Shown here in pieces: positions 53,284 to 60,861 of a stretch of DNA of 64,000 nt. The DNA is taken from contig NZ_CADFDK010000007.1 in assembly GCF_902832885.1 (NCBI RefSeq), forward strand, positions 248,001 through 312,000. The letters are read 5' to 3'. The DNA is from Burkholderia seminalis DSM 23518. Its GTDB lineage: Bacteria > Pseudomonadota > Gammaproteobacteria > Burkholderiales > Burkholderiaceae. The first letter of the stretch is position 1. Each line of letters begins with the position of its first letter. A model generated the notes under the pieces. That model was not told the DNA's origin and made no database searches. It saw only the letters and a list, made by a program, of their open reading frames with translations. A program made the translations under genes and the position numbers.

Positions 53284-54309
53284 CTATGCCGCGCGCGGCG
53301 CCTGCCCGGTCGTGCCGCGCACCCTCAGTTTCGGCAACGACGCGACACGCATGCGCGGCGCCTCGCCGCTCCATCCGCCCGCCTCGCGCAATGTATTGAG
53401 CAGTTCGACCGCGAGGCCGGCCGCCTCGGCAGTCGGGATCGCGACGGTCGTCAGCGTCGGGCGCGTGTCGCTGGCCAGATGAATGTCGGTCATCCCGACG
53501 ATCGACAGATCGTCGGGCACGCGCCTGCCACGGTCGGCCGCCGCATGCATCGCGCCGATCGCCGGCAGGTCGTTGGTGGCCACCAGCGCGGTCAGGCTCG
53601 GATGCGCATCGAGCAGCCGCCCCGCCGCGCGCACGCCGCCTTCGATCGAATCGGGCTCGGCCGCGACGACCGACGCGTCGAGCCCGGCCTCGCGCATCAC
53701 GTCGACGAACCCGTCGTAGCGCGCCGCCTGCACGCCGCTTGCCGACCCGCCGACGATCACGCCAATCCGCCGGTGGCCGAGTTCGAGCAGATGCCGTGTC
53801 GCGATCCGTCCCGCCTCGCGGAAATCGATCGCCACGCACGGCAGGCCGTCGGGCGGCGCCTCGGGCCGCTCCCACAGGCACAGCACGACCGGCACGCCGC
53901 GCCGCGCGACGTCGAGCAGATCCGGCAGGTGCAGGTTCGCGTTGGTCACGAGAATCCCTTCCGAGATCGTGCCGGCGATCTGGTCGAGATACGCGCGCCC
54001 CTGCAACGGATCCTCATTCGTATTGCAGACGATCAGGAACTGCCCGTTGCGGCGCACCGCCCGTTCGACCGCCAGCGCGAATTCCGGGTAGAACGGGTTC
54101 GCGATGCTCGACACCATCAGCGCGACCGTCGGCGCGCGCCCTTCCGCCAGCGCCCGCGCGGCGAGATGCGGCCGGTACCCGAGCGCCTCGACGGCTTCCA
54201 GCACGCGCGCCCGCGTCGCCTCGCCCACCCGGCCGCGGCCGCGCAGCACGTTCGACACCGTCGCGGCCGTCACGCCGGCGCGACGCGCCACTTCATCCAG
54301 GGTTGCCAT
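53284..54309 (-). CDS. LacI-family repressor of the galactoside operon
   Basis: A 341-residue regulator: helix-turn-helix at 1-50 (MATLDEVARRAGVTAATVSNVLRGRGRVGEATRARVLEAVEALGYRPH) and a periplasmic-binding-protein-like effector domain (VALMVSSIANPFYPEFALAVERAV onward). It is divergent from the galactoside ABC/GH42 operon. The 20-bp palindrome at 54444-54463 with the central CG typical of LacI operators is the likely binding site; galactose or a galactoside would be the inducer. Confidence 0.9.
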   Translation of the reverse strand: MATLDEVARRAGVTAATVSNVLRGRGRVGEATRARVLEAVEALGYRPHLAARALAEGRAPTVALMVSSIANPFYPEFALAVERAVRRNGQFLIVCNTNEDPLQGRAYLDQIAGTISEGILVTNANLHLPDLLDVARRGVPVVLCLWERPEAPPDGLPCVAIDFREAGRIATRHLLELGHRRIGVIVGGSASGVQAARYDGFVDVMREAGLDASVVAAEPDSIEGGVRAAGRLLDAHPSLTALVATNDLPAIGAMHAAADRGRRVPDDLSIVGMTDIHLASDTRPTLTTVAIPTAEAAGLAVELLNTLREAGGWSGEAPRMRVASLPKLRVRGTTGQAPRAA

Positions 54310-54497: not shown

Positions 54498-55646
54498 ATG
54501 GCGAGCATCTCGATGCGGCGCGTGCAGAAAGCCTACGGCGATCACGCGCCGGTGATACGCGACGTCGATCTGGAGATCGGTGCGCACGAGTTCTGCGTGT
54601 TCCTCGGGCCGTCCGGTTGCGGCAAGTCGACGCTGCTCCGCATGATCGCCGGGCTCGAGGACCTGAGCGCGGGCGAACTGTCGATCGACGGCCGCCGCGT
54701 CGACGACGTGCCGGCCGCCGAGCGCGGCGTAGCGATGGTGTTCCAGAGCTACGCGCTGTTTCCGCACATGACGGTGTACGAGAACATGGCGTTCGGGCTG
54801 AAGCTCGCACGGGTGCCGAAAGTCGAGATCGACCGCAAGGTGCGCGACGCCGCGCGCATCCTGCAGCTCGACACGCTGCTCGACCGCAAGCCGAAGGCGC
54901 TGTCCGGCGGTCAGCGGCAGCGCGTCGCGATCGGCCGCGCGATCGTGCGCGAGCCCGGCGTGTTCCTGTTCGACGAACCGCTGTCGAATCTCGACGCGGC
55001 GCTGCGCGGCCAGACCCGCATCGAGATCGCGCGGCTGCACCGGCAGTTCGAACGCGCGAGCGTCGTCTACGTGACGCACGACCAGACCGAAGCGATGACG
55101 CTCGCCGACAAGATCGTGCTGCTGCACGCCGGCGCGGATACCGCGCAGCACGGCAGCATCGCGCAGGTCGGCGCGCCGCTCGACCTCTACCACCATCCGG
55201 CCAGCCGCTTCGTCGCGGGTTTCATCGGGTCGCCGCGCATGAACTTCCTGCCGGCCGTCGTGACCGCGTGCGACGCGCATCGCACGACCGTCACGCTCGT
55301 GCCGTCCGGCGAGACCTTCGCGCTGCCGCGCGACGGCTCGGCACTTGGCGCCGGCGCCGCCGTGACGCTCGGCATTCGCCCCGAACACCTGACGCTCGGC
55401 GCCGCGCTCGACGCCACGACGCTCGCGCGCGACGTCGCGCTCGTCGAACGCCTCGGCGAACAGACCTACGTGCACCTCGACGGGCCCGGCGGCGCACCGC
55501 TGATCGCGAAGGTGCCCGGCGACGCGCAAGTGCGCGCCGGCGAGCGCGTGCACCTGCATGCGCCGGCCGCGGCCTGCCATCTCTTCACCGAAGACGGCCG
55601 CGCGGTGCCCGCGTGCGCCGACGTCCACGTCCACCACTACGCATAA
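54498..55646 (+). CDS. Sugar ABC transporter ATPase (MalK/LacK/UgpC type)
   Basis: A 382-residue ATPase: Walker [10 protein letters not shown] (37-45), LSGGQRQRV signature (134-), Walker B FLFDEP (155-160), H-loop [13 protein letters not shown], and a C-terminal OB-fold regulatory domain with [12 protein letters not shown]. It energises the two permeases encoded downstream. GGAG lies 5 bases before the ATG. It opens the operon with the GH42 enzyme, whose start is 8 bases past its stop. Confidence 0.93.
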
Positions 55647-55654
55647 GGATCGGC

Positions 55655-57646
55655 ATGCGCCTCGGAGCCTGCTACTACCCGGAACACTGGCCGGAATCGA
55701 TGTGGGCCGATGACGCCCGCCGGATGAAAGCGCTCGGCATCGAGCAGGTGCGGATCGCCGAATTCGCGTGGAGCCGCATCGAGCCGTCGCCGGGCGAATA
55801 CGACTGGGGCTGGCTCGACCGCGCGGTCGACGTGCTCGGCGCGGCCGGCCTCGAGATCGTGATGTGCACGCCGACCGCGACGCCGCCGAAATGGCTGGTC
55901 GACCGCCATCCCGACATCCTAGCGATCGGTGCCGACGGCCGGCCGCGCGCGTTCGGCTCGCGCCGCCACTACGACTTCTCGTCGCCGACCTATCTGGAAG
56001 CGTCGCGGCAGATCTGCACGGCCGTCGCCGAACGCTACGGCCGCCATCCCGCCGTGCGCCACTGGCAAACCGACAACGAACTCGGCTGCCACCAGACCGT
56101 CGTCAGCTACTCGCCGGCCGCGCTCGTGCGCTTCCGTGCGTGGCTGAAGGCGCGCTACGGCACGATCGACGCGCTGAACCGCGCATGGGGCACCGTGTTC
56201 TGGAGCATGGAGTATCGCCATTTCGACGAAATCGACGCGCCCGTCGGCACCGTGACCGAAGCCCATCCGTCGCATCGTCTCGATTACCGGCGCTTCGCAT
56301 CCGACGAAGTCGCGCGCTATCACCGGATGCAGGTCGACGTGATCCGCGCGCATTCGCCGGGCCGGCCGGTCGCGCACAACTTCATGCAGCTGTTCACCGA
56401 GTTCGATCACTACGAGGTGGCGCGCGACCTCGACATCGCGACGTGGGACAGCTACCCGCTCGGCGCGCTGGAGGAGCTCTGGTTCGCGCCCGACGTGAAG
56501 GCGCGCTGGCTGCGCACCGGCCATCCGGATTTCGCGTCGTTCAATCACGATCTGTATCGCGGGATGTCGAAGCTGCCGTTCTGGGTGATGGAACAGCAGC
56601 CGGGGCCCGTGAACTGGGCCCAGTGGAACCCCGCGCCGCTGCCGGGCATGGTGCGCCTGTGGAGCTGGGAAGCGTTCGCGCATGGCGCCGGCTGCGTGTC
56701 CTACTTCCGCTGGCGGCAGGCGCCGTTCGCGCAGGAGCAGATGCATGCGGGCCTCAATACGCCGGACAACCGGCTCGACGAAGGCGGCCGCGAGGCGCAG
56801 CGCGTCGCACGCGAAATCGCCACCGTGCTCGATGCCGGCGCCGATGCCGACGCGAACGGCACGGTGCGCGCCCCGGTCGCGCTCATGTTCGACTATGAAG
56901 CGAAGTGGCTGTTCGAAGTGCAGCCGCAAGGCGCCGATTTCCACTACCCGCGCGTCGCGTTCGACTACTACTCGGCGCTGCGCTCGCTCGGCCTCGACGT
57001 CGACATTGTGTCGCCGCACGCGCCGCTCGACGGCTATCGCCTCGTCGTCGTGCCGCCGCTGCCCGTCGTGCCGGACGATTTCGCGGCACGGCTCGCCGCC
57101 TCGGGCGCGCATGCGGTATTCGGGCCGCGTACGGGTTCGAAGACCGTCGACCTGCAGATTCCGCCGACGCTGCCGCCCGGCCCGCTCGCGTCGATCCTGC
57201 CGGTGCGCGTGTGGCGCGTCGAATCGCTGCGGCCGAACGTGACCGAGCGGATCGACGGCACGTTGCGCGACGGCTCGCCGCTCGCGGGCGACGCGCGCCA
57301 CTGGCGCGACTTCGTCGAGCTCCACGACGAAACGCGCAGCGTCGTGCATGCGCGTTTCGCCGACGGTCATCCGGCCTGCGTGTCGCATGGCGCGCTGCAC
57401 TACTGGGCCGCGCTGTTCGACGCCGCGACCACCGCGAAGCTGTTCGCCGACGTCGCGACCGACGCGGGCCTCGCGCCGACGCCGCTCGGCGACGGCGTGC
57501 GGGTGAGCCGGCGCGGCGGCCTGACCTACGTTTTCAACTACGGCAACGCGCCGCACACGATCGATGCGGTGCCGCCGTCGGCGTTCGTGCTCGGCGCCGC
57601 GCAAGTCGAGCCGCAAGACGTGGCCGTGTATCGAAGCCGTTCGTAG
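55655..57646 (+). CDS. Beta-galactosidase, glycoside hydrolase family 42
   Basis: A 663-residue enzyme, normal for GH42. The TIM barrel begins [49 protein letters not shown]; the acid/base glutamate is Glu142 in QTDNELGCH and the nucleophile Glu313 in [13 protein letters not shown] trimerisation domain (about 400-590) and a small C-terminal beta domain follow. No signal peptide is present, so it acts on galactosides after import by the ABC system. AAGGA precedes the ATG 8 bases past the ATPase stop. Confidence 0.94.
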
Positions 57647-57712
57647 CCCCCCGCCACCGGCGCCGCGACGCGCCGGTCACGCACAAGACGACACACTGGA
57701 ATGGAGACACGC

Positions 57713-58972
57713 ATGACACATCGCCCCCTTCGCGCCGCCGCCCGGCTCGCCGCGGCCGCCACCGTCGCGTTCGCATCGCTCGGCACGACGGCGCCCGCCG
57801 ATGCCGGCACGCTGACCATCAATATCGCGTTCAAGGGCGCGAGCCAGCGCGCGGTCTGGCAATCGACGCTCGACGCGTTCCACAAGGCGCATCCCGACAT
57901 CGACGTGAAGGCGACCTTCGTCGACGAGGAAGCGTACAAGGTGCAACTCCCCGCGTGGCTGACGACCGTCGCGCCGGACGTCGTGAACTGGCACGCGGGC
58001 GAGCGGATGGCGTACTACGCGAAGCGCGGGCTGTTCGAGGACCTGAGCGGCGACTGGACCAAGAACGGCTGGGGCGCGATGTACGCGTCGACGCGCGATG
58101 CCTCGTCGTACAACGGCAAGCAGTATGCGGCGCCCACCGTCTACTACTCGTGGGGGCTGTTCTACCGCAAGGACCTGTTCCGCAAGGTCGGCATCGCCGA
58201 CGAGCCGAAGACGTGGGACCAGTTTCTCGACGCGTGCAAGAAGCTGAAGGCGGCCGGCATCACGCCGGTCGCGATCGGCGGCCGCGACGCGTGGACGCTT
58301 GCCGGCTGGTTCGACTATCTCGACCTGCGCCTGAACGGCAACGCGTTCCACCAGCAACTGATGGCCGGCGACGTGCCGTACACCGACCCGCGCGTGAAGA
58401 AGGTCTACACGACGTGGAAGTCGCTGATCGACGCCGGCTACTTCATCGACAACGCGCTGTCCTACGATCTCGACGGCGCGCAGCCGTTCCTGTTCCAGGG
58501 CAAGGCCGCGATGATGCTGATGGGCACCTTCATCGCGGCGGGCTTTCCGCCGAACGTGAAACCGGAAATGGGCTACTACCGCTTCCCGATCATCGACCCG
58601 AAGGTGCCGACCGCCGAGGACGGCCCGGTCGAATCGCTGCACATCCCGACCAAGGCGAAGAACAAGGCCGATGCGCGCACGTTCCTCGCATTCGTCGAAA
58701 CGCCCGAGATGGGCGCGAAGCTCGCGGAAGGGCTCGGCTCGCTGTCGGCCAACAGCAAGTCGCCCGAGCCGGCCGATCCGGTCTCGCGCATCGGGTTCCG
58801 GATTCTCGCCGACACGAAGGGCGGCGTCGCGCAGTTCTACGATCGCGACATGACGAAGGAAATGGCCGACGAAGGGATGAAAGGCATGCAGCAGTTCCTC
58901 GCGAATCCCGCGCAGCTCGATACGGTGCTCGCGCAACTCGAACAGACCCGCAAGCGGATCTACAAGAAGTGA
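57713..58972 (+). CDS. Sugar-binding protein of the galactoside ABC importer (CUT1)
   Basis: A 419-residue family 1 solute-binding protein with a signal peptide (MTHRPLRAAARLAAAATVAFASLGTTAPADA). ASQRAVWQSTLDAFHKAHPDIDVKATFVDEEAYKVQLPAWLTTVAPDVVNWHAGERMAYYAKRGLFEDLS is typical of the CUT1 oligosaccharide binders. With GH42 beside it the ligand is probably a beta-galactoside. GGAG lies 6 bases before ATG 57713; the ATG at 57701 is an alternative. It follows the GH42 gene by 66 bases. Confidence 0.92.
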   Translation: MTHRPLRAAARLAAAATVAFASLGTTAPADAGTLTINIAFKGASQRAVWQSTLDAFHKAHPDIDVKATFVDEEAYKVQLPAWLTTVAPDVVNWHAGERMAYYAKRGLFEDLSGDWTKNGWGAMYASTRDASSYNGKQYAAPTVYYSWGLFYRKDLFRKVGIADEPKTWDQFLDACKKLKAAGITPVAIGGRDAWTLAGWFDYLDLRLNGNAFHQQLMAGDVPYTDPRVKKVYTTWKSLIDAGYFIDNALSYDLDGAQPFLFQGKAAMMLMGTFIAAGFPPNVKPEMGYYRFPIIDPKVPTAEDGPVESLHIPTKAKNKADARTFLAFVETPEMGAKLAEGLGSLSANSKSPEPADPVSRIGFRILADTKGGVAQFYDRDMTKEMADEGMKGMQQFLANPAQLDTVLAQLEQTRKRIYKK

Positions 58973-59026
58973 CCGCGTGACCCAACCGGCGGCCGCGCGC
59001 CGCCCTGTCCGTTCAGGAGGCTTGCC

Positions 59027-59989
59027 GTGTCCAGTCCGATCACGTCCCCCCCCCCCCCCCCCCCCCCCCCGCGCGCCGGCACCGCGCCGCCGCCGCGCGG
59101 GACATCCGCCGCCGCGTTGCCCGCGCGCCGCCCGTCGCCCGCCGTGCGGCGGCAACGGCGCGCCGCGTGGCTGTTTCTCGCGCCGGCCTGCGCGATGGTG
59201 GCCGTCTATGTGATCTGGCCGATCCTGTCGACGCTGTGGCTGAGCCTGTACAACTGGGACGGGATGACCGAGCGCACGTTCGTCGGTCTCGCGAACTATG
59301 CCGAACTGCTGCAGGCGCCGACCTTCTACACGGCGCTGCGCAACAACGTGATCTGGCTCGCGCTCTTCATGCTCGCGCCGCCGCTCGGCCTCGCGCTCGC
59401 GCTGTACCTGAACCAGGCGGTCGGCGGCATCCGCCTCGTGAAATCGCTGTTCTTCGCGCCGTTCGTGCTGTCCGGCGTGGTCGTCGGCCTGATCTTCTCG
59501 TGGTTCTACGATCCGACCTTCGGGCTGCTCGCGTTGATCGTCGGGCACGGCATCCCGGTACTCGGCGACGCACGCTACGCGACGCTCGGCGTCGTGTTCG
59601 CCGCGCTGTGGCCGCAGACGGCGTACTGCATGATCCTGTACCTGACCGGCCTCACGTCGGTCAACCCGGAACAGATCGAGGCCGCGCGGATGGAAGGCGC
59701 GCGCGGCTTCGCGCTGCTGTGGCACGTCGTGCTGCCGCAGTTGCGGCCGACCACTTTCATGGCGATCGTCGTCACGGTGATCGGCGCGCTGCGCAGCTTC
59801 GACCTGATCTCGGTGATGACGAGCGGCGGCCCGTTCGAGAGTTCGACCGTGCTCGCGTATTACATGTACGACCAGGCGATCAAGTATTACCGGCTGGGCT
59901 ATTCCGCGTCGATCGCCGCCGTGCTGTTCGCGATCATGCTCGTCTACATCGTGTTCCAGTTGCGCCGCATGCTGCGCAACGAGCAGTGA
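59027..59989 (+). CDS. Galactoside ABC permease 1 (MalF/LacF type) with poly-proline N-terminus
   Basis: A 320-residue permease with six helices. The first 45 residues are cytosolic, with eight consecutive prolines (8-15 after MSSPITS) and a Pro/Arg-rich stretch. The first helix is WLFLAPACAMVAVYVIWPILSTLWLSLYNWDG. The ATPase-contacting EAA loop is EAARMEGARGFALLWHVVLPQLRP. The start is GTG with AGGAGG 7 bases before it. The prolines are encoded by an uninterrupted run of 25 C (59046-59070). Loss or gain of one base would put the whole permease out of frame. Confidence 0.92.
   Translation: MSSPITSPPPPPPPPRAGTAPPPRGTSAAALPARRPSPAVRRQRRAAWLFLAPACAMVAVYVIWPILSTLWLSLYNWDGMTERTFVGLANYAELLQAPTFYTALRNNVIWLALFMLAPPLGLALALYLNQAVGGIRLVKSLFFAPFVLSGVVVGLIFSWFYDPTFGLLALIVGHGIPVLGDARYATLGVVFAALWPQTAYCMILYLTGLTSVNPEQIEAARMEGARGFALLWHVVLPQLRPTTFMAIVVTVIGALRSFDLISVMTSGGPFESSTVLAYYMYDQAIKYYRLGYSASIAAVLFAIMLVYIVFQLRRMLRNEQ
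59046..59070 (+). repeat. Homopolymeric C25 tract inside permease gene
   Basis: 25 uninterrupted C residues, starting 19 bases after the GTG start codon and read as CCC codons plus the adjoining TCC and CCG. At this length the gene is in frame (ON). It is by far the longest homopolymer in the window. Confidence 0.97.
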
Positions 59990-60009: not shown

Positions 60010-60861
60010 ATGTTTCCGACGCCCGTTGCCCAATGGAAGCCCGTCTCGCGCCGGCTGTACAAGCTGTCGCTGCCCGTCGCGCTGCTGATCTGGCTGATGC
60101 CGATGATCGCCGTGTTCGTCACGTCGGTGCGCTCGACCGAAGAACTCGTCGAAGGCCACTACTGGGGCTGGCCGCGCCACTTCGCGATGGTCGAGAACTA
60201 CCGCGACGCGCTGACGACGTCGCCGATGCTGCATTACTTCTGGAACAGCGTGCAGATCACGGTGCCGTCCGTGATCGGCTCGATCGCGCTCGCGGCGATG
60301 GCCGGCTTCGCGCTCGCGACCTACCGGTTCCGCGGCAATACCGCGCTGTTCGGCACGTTCGTCGCCGGCAACTTCGTGCCGGTGCAGGTGCTGATGATTC
60401 CGGTGCGCGACCTGTCGCTGAGGCTCGGCGTGTTCAATACGGTCGAAGCGCTGATCCTGTTTCACGTCGCGTTCCAGACCGGGTTCTGCACGCTGTTCCT
60501 GCGCAACTTCATCAAGCAGTTGCCGTTCGAGCTGATCGAGGCGGCGCGCATCGAAGGCGCGGGCGAATGGACGGTGTTCTGGCGCATCGTGCTGCCGCTG
60601 ATCCGGCCGGCGCTGGCCGCGCTGGCGATTCTCGTGTTTACGTTCGTGTGGAACGACTACTTCTGGGCGCTGTGTCTCACGCAGGGCGACGAGGCCGCGC
60701 CGATCACCGCCGGCGTCGCGGCGCTGAAGGGGCAATGGACGACGTCGTGGAATCTCGTGTCGGCCGGGTCGATTCTCGCCGCGCTGCCGTCGGTCGCGAT
60801 GTTCTTCGCGATGCAGAAGCATTTCGTCGCGGGGCTCACGTTCGGCGCGACGAAAGGCTGA
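60010..60861 (+). CDS. Galactoside ABC permease 2 (MalG/LacG type)
   Basis: A 283-residue permease with six helices: LYKLSLPVALLIWLMPMIAVFVTSVRSTEELVEGHYWGWP at the N-terminus and EAARIEGAGEWTVFWRIVLPLIRPALAALAILVFTFVWNDYFWAL containing the EAA loop. It pairs with the MalF-type permease; its gene follows after 20 bases with GGAG upstream of the ATG. It is the last gene of the operon, ended by the terminator at 60911. Confidence 0.92.
   Translation: MFPTPVAQWKPVSRRLYKLSLPVALLIWLMPMIAVFVTSVRSTEELVEGHYWGWPRHFAMVENYRDALTTSPMLHYFWNSVQITVPSVIGSIALAAMAGFALATYRFRGNTALFGTFVAGNFVPVQVLMIPVRDLSLRLGVFNTVEALILFHVAFQTGFCTLFLRNFIKQLPFELIEAARIEGAGEWTVFWRIVLPLIRPALAALAILVFTFVWNDYFWALCLTQGDEAAPITAGVAALKGQWTTSWNLVSAGSILAALPSVAMFFAMQKHFVAGLTFGATKG

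Follow-up and report, generated by a model that had tools for sequence, protein, structure and literature searches.

The poly-C and poly-G contingency genes of Neisseria, Campylobacter and Helicobacter phase-vary by slipped-strand mispairing, and homopolymer phase variation itself is well known, frameshifts in a metabolic gene included. The locus described here resembles those genes in that an extended C run lies close to the 5′ end of the ORF, where a one-base change shifts the frame; unlike them, it is a sugar permease gene, the long tract is known in one genome, and the relatives examined lack it. In the carbon-metabolism gene glpK of Mycobacterium tuberculosis, a seven-base homopolymer is associated with frameshift variants in many clinical isolates (PMC6667613); the Burkholderia case is similar in that the gene also serves carbon metabolism and a one-base change in its C/G run shifts the frame (here in silico), and differs in that the tract has 25 bases and comes from a single genome. 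Burkholderia mallei, of the same genus as our locus, acquires SSR indels with frameshifts on passage (PMC1574311), but these have units of 6–14 nt whereas our tract is a homopolymer, and the section of that paper on the subject, which counts 1,506 homopolymers, describes no poly-C permease case. Among 90 genomes of Propionibacterium acnes, variable G/C tracts occur in and between genes with lengths that follow clades, a pattern read by its authors as slow accumulation and not active modification (PMC4746626); that study compared 90 genomes of one species and ours has one genome of its species, and such clade-following tracts are the more modest model for the present tract. Additionally, PMC2831843 cites a Mycoplasma fermentans ABC transporter gene with a poly(A) of 7 bases and describes poly(C) and poly(G) tracts as generally underrepresented in coding genes, and in a study of B. 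dolosa variants around homopolymers were discarded (PMC12287342). We found no Burkholderia sugar importer described as carrying a poly-C tract in the portions of the open-licence literature searched, and the extract available of an H. influenzae repeat paper holds nothing on alternative starts in other frames.

The stretch analysed here (the window, 64 kb, G+C 68.5 %, G000:C7:248001-312000) belongs to a 55-contig draft genome of 7,974,784 bases (7.97 Mb). It contains a run of exactly 25 C at 59046–59070 on the forward strand, with T before and G after it (G25 on the opposite strand), and reading the window sequence thus confirms the uninterrupted C25 of the first-pass annotation. The tract encodes most of an eight-proline stretch, and the poly-proline coding that had been proposed is borne out by the translation (S-P8); its placement directly after the start codon is not, since the GTG lies at 59027–59029, a further 16 nt precede the tract, and the residues V-S-S-P-I-T-S come before the eight prolines. 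The second-longest C run in the window is 6, and across both strands of the draft genome there are 38 C runs of at least 8, seven of at least 10 and one of at least 13. That one is the C25 tract, whose length as deposited in the draft is far beyond the genome background; as in an SSR contingency locus, it is of hypermutable length and a change in its length alters the reading frame in silico.

The gene that carries the tract encodes a MalF-type ABC permease of 320 aa (59027–59989, forward strand; GTG start, TGA stop at 59987–59989; PF00528, BPD_transp_1, 62.7 bits against a cut-off of 26.4, E 4.8e-17). Its ribosome-binding site AGGAGG (59015–59020, forward) has the AGGAGG-CTTGCC-GTG layout seen in many relatives, and a variable Pro/Ala/Arg-rich leader (59027–59173, forward; 147 nt in the window) precedes the conserved FLAPAC body. 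On the same strand lie genes for a MalK-type ABC ATPase (54498–55646, likely start 54498; PF00005, PF08402, PF17912), a GH42 beta-galactosidase (55646–57646, start as used for the scan; PF02449, E 3.5e-149), an extracellular solute-binding protein (SBP_bac_1, 57701–58972; PF01547, E 1e-44) and a MalG-type ABC permease (60010–60861, stop 60859–60861; PF00528, E 7.8e-18); a LacI-family regulator gene is divergent (53284–54309, reverse strand, likely start 54309; PF00356, PF00532). The Pfam matches of the neighbours (PF01547, PF00528, PF00005) agree with the permease identity and the surrounding genes as first annotated, and it is a fair inference from the families present that this is an operon for beta-galactoside import and cleavage, with the substrate putative. 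No close backup permease is evident, as the next best permease relative in the genome is only 31 % identical.

As deposited, C25 is in frame and yields the 320-aa permease. A tract change of −1 or +2 leads to a TGA at 59211–59213 (forward) and an ORF of 61 or 62 aa (61 aa for C24), whereas with +1 or −2 the ORF extends to 611 or 610 aa (611 for C26), reading malF out of frame and terminating at the MalG stop, 60859–60861. We considered this long wrong-frame ORF as a conserved feature and discarded it: in G011, a relative with C5 at the site, the 318-aa ORF from the same GTG stops about at the end of malF, so that the open frame into malG appears to be a chance effect of G+C-rich DNA. The expectation that any non-triplet change would abolish the permease divides into two parts, of which the shift of frame stands, according to the C24 and C26 translations, and abolition as a necessary result finds no support, given that two sister out-of-frame lineages (below) keep a permease body that looks selected and have another start in its frame. 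In the window a TTG at 59022–59024 (forward) corresponds to the one that the C5 allele has at −5 and would share the frame of the permease body if the tract were C23 or C26, and a CTG, a weaker start, occupies 59005–59007 (forward), the place of a GTG at −22 in the body frame of both C6 alleles. With the TTG present and CTG as the −22 codon, a slip may lower rather than abolish the permease.

A genus search of 65 genomes gave 46 clear matches (E 2.1e-45 or better), and 45 rows have a recognised malF body, 42 from these genomes and three from plasmid-collection records; G015, G028, G014 and G050 were distant matches without a recognised core. We scored 43 of the 45 rows, leaving out G021 and G017, which the start pattern missed and whose body frames are open upstream. 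The three plasmid-collection records have a close locus (95.4, 93.4 and 91.4 % identity) without annotated genes there; in that collection, where the comparison covers the 20 records listed of 23, six further Burkholderia records match at 79.2 % and a Caballeronia record has no recognised malF core. No second strain of the window's species was identified in the 65 genus genomes or in the listed plasmid-collection records, from which near records may be left out. The permease is largely conserved from about RRPSPAVRRQRRAAW-LFLAPAC onward and the leader is highly variable, yet its length keeps to multiples of three (114–168 nt) throughout the 34 scored rows that lack a pure C run. TCC-ACC-CCG is more frequent at the tract site than any other form (16 of the 43 rows scored), and 19 of 43 begin with TCC-ACC; five genomes (G041, G039, G054, G043 and G045) have C7 (TCC-CCC-CCG), the remaining rows differ, and most relatives have 1–3 prolines there. 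Tract lengths across species are C5, C6, C7 and C25. None of the 44 other malF rows has a C run above 7 at the site (C7 or shorter in the 42 other scored rows). Of 130 loci examined, 109 including the window's have a recognised core and 21 lack one, some species being present twice; within the 200 nt upstream of the body, C/G runs in the 108 loci besides the window's reach 7 at most. A tract of hypermutable length thus does not recur across lineages in the relatives examined.

In the body tree the window groups with G056 and G055 (97/81) inside a six-row group (96/86), and the group's other rows (G056, G055, G053, G005 and B. arboris CP101525) all have TCC-ACC-CCG. Since all five carry the interrupting A, C25 is best read as an A-to-C change plus an 18-base expansion, net in frame, that took place on the branch of the window alone; one more C/G difference from the relatives lies directly behind the run. 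Support is weak at many deep forks of this tree, 19 of its 41 inner branches being open, so the tree gives no count of origins of the pure-C state.

Considering these data, we think that C25 is probably a lineage-specific expansion, an incidental slippery microsatellite in a tolerant, poorly constrained MalF leader, although we hold this with only modest assurance. What expanded would have been a few C-rich codons of the fast-evolving leader that an A-to-C change in ACC had made C7-like, and replication slippage at C25 would then be frequent, in which case cultures of the strain should hold mixed tract lengths. One frame in three would give full-length MalF from the SD-linked GTG, the second would stop after about 61 codons, and the third would pass through malF in the wrong frame into the frame of malG; one sugar importer would now and then be lost or reduced, an effect that the possible other-frame start codons just upstream may partly buffer. 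In Vibrio mutation-accumulation lines without mismatch repair, the indel rate grows with homopolymer length (PMC5854121). An obvious mutator background was rejected for the present genome, where MutS and MutL models match above cut-off with no internal stops and both proteins look intact, so the slippage rate is presumably below that of a mutator and still high for 25 bases. On this explanation the tract would illustrate how a short coding C run turns into a hypermutable site in one lineage; if it is real and slips, it would offer a simple and testable example of metabolic, non-surface frame switching in a genus of G+C-rich environmental and opportunistic bacteria.

Frame changes at this site do occur in nature, as out-of-frame alleles are found there in relatives. 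Read from the SD-linked GTG, G026 (C6; 4 contigs), B. cenocepacia CMCC(B)23006 (C6; a complete replicon) and G011 (C5; 7 contigs) are out of frame, that is, three of the nine rows with an uninterrupted C run of at least 5 against none of the 34 scored rows that remain (a one-sided Fisher test gives 0.0068, and 0.033 if the C6 sister pair counts once, a comparison that rests on three alleles, or two events if the sisters share one). The permease body of 271 codons is open in all three. Moreover, the two C6 rows are sisters in the body tree (99/94), and their bodies differ at eight sites, seven of them third positions and one nonsynonymous (dS 0.034, dN 0.0017), where about 70–74 % nonsynonymous changes would be expected without constraint (P about 0.0005–0.0014). 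This suggests that the permease body of the C6 sisters stayed in use, provided that C6 predates their split. Both C6 alleles have a GTG at −22 in the body frame, with no SD seen, and in the C5 allele the body frame offers two start codons, a TTG at −5 immediately after AGGAGG and a GTG at −50; from these codons we infer that alternative starts may rescue the out-of-frame alleles, and reversible slippage or ribosomal frameshifting are possible other routes to use of the C6 body. The C6 and C5 calls could include sequencing errors, yet the sister C6 genomes agree. Out-of-frame relatives such as these could pass for pseudogenes, and selection on the body suggests continued use in two of them. The C6 loci themselves (L021 in G026 and L174 in B. 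cenocepacia CMCC(B)23006) share an out-of-frame leader and a conserved body, and may represent an alternatively started gene.

Among the alternatives, the one that survives best, though we judge it unlikely, is an artefact, in which the true run is shorter (e.g. C7–C12) and was over-called in sequencing or assembly. The genome is a 55-contig draft, long C/G runs of several other drafts stand at contig ends or in low-complexity stretches, and no examined relative exceeds C7 at the site, all of which would fit such an error; but the tract is interior to contig C7 (at 307046, ~307 kb into it, with 4.9 kb or more of the contig still to follow), its flanks agree on both sides with the relatives, it sits exactly at their C-rich run, its length keeps the frame (a one-in-three chance), and runs of 13–52 exist somewhere in six other assemblies of 3–7 contigs.

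It is rather doubtful that the tract is a selected contingency switch, with the long poly-C kept because turning the galactoside importer on and off helps populations in changing habitats. Its place near the 5′ end, its extreme length against the genome background, the frame outcomes of slips, the frame changes at the site in other lineages and the homopolymer frameshifts documented in glpK (PMC6667613) are all compatible with such a role. A maintained switch, however, would predict long tracts in relatives, and the other 44 malF rows have no run above 7 at the site, the nearest relatives even having an interrupting A; nor is there an evident surface or antigenic role or evidence of switching. 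The candidate phase-variable switch of the first-pass annotation thus finds no support in the relatives as a dedicated one.

We give still less credence to the idea that the tract mainly tunes expression with no frame change. Ribosomes stall on consecutive prolines when EF-P does not assist, +1 ribosomal frameshifting is favoured by CCC-C runs, and template-strand G runs such as G25 could fold into a quadruplex and hinder transcription; the tract does encode S-P8 where relatives mostly have 1–3 prolines, but tuning by itself leaves the out-of-frame alleles of relatives unexplained. Equally improbable in our estimation, start codons in three frames (the SD-linked GTG, the TTG at −5 and the GTG at −22) would make the tract a graded frame selector in the B. 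cepacia group, fast-switching in the window's lineage, such that each tract length would set its own permease level instead of an on or off state.

Long C runs as such are not unique to the window's genome, as runs of at least 13 occur in 22 of the 65 genus genomes, the window's included, and many of these runs lie where a contig ends or in draft stretches of low complexity. A shared poly-C phasome in the genus was rejected, no common function appearing among the places inspected (30 of the 64 listed with runs of at least 13, with the ORFs around 21 of the 30). The drafts G027, G045, G048, G050 and G051 have long C/G runs in clusters, at the ends of contigs or in low-complexity sequence; these are likely artefacts of assembly or sequencing, and those of G051 adjoin unknown bases. 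The six 3–7-contig assemblies with long runs are G011 (C14), G012 (C13), G041 (C14), G052 (G14), G055 (G52) and G058 (C18). At E 1e-5, Pfam matches none of eight ORFs taken from four of the inspected loci (G044 C23, G058 C18, G011 C14 and G012 C13). The G044 run (L138, G044:C1:529351) lies inside ORFs in a relative of the window, two of the ORFs having been scanned without a Pfam match; in G058, a 3-contig genome, an ATG is followed at once by C18 (L146, G058:C2:909107), and the four surrounding ORFs have no Pfam family. Finally, the 3-contig Burkholderia genome G055 carries a run of 52 G (L144, G055:C2, near 2003203) with ORFs around it.
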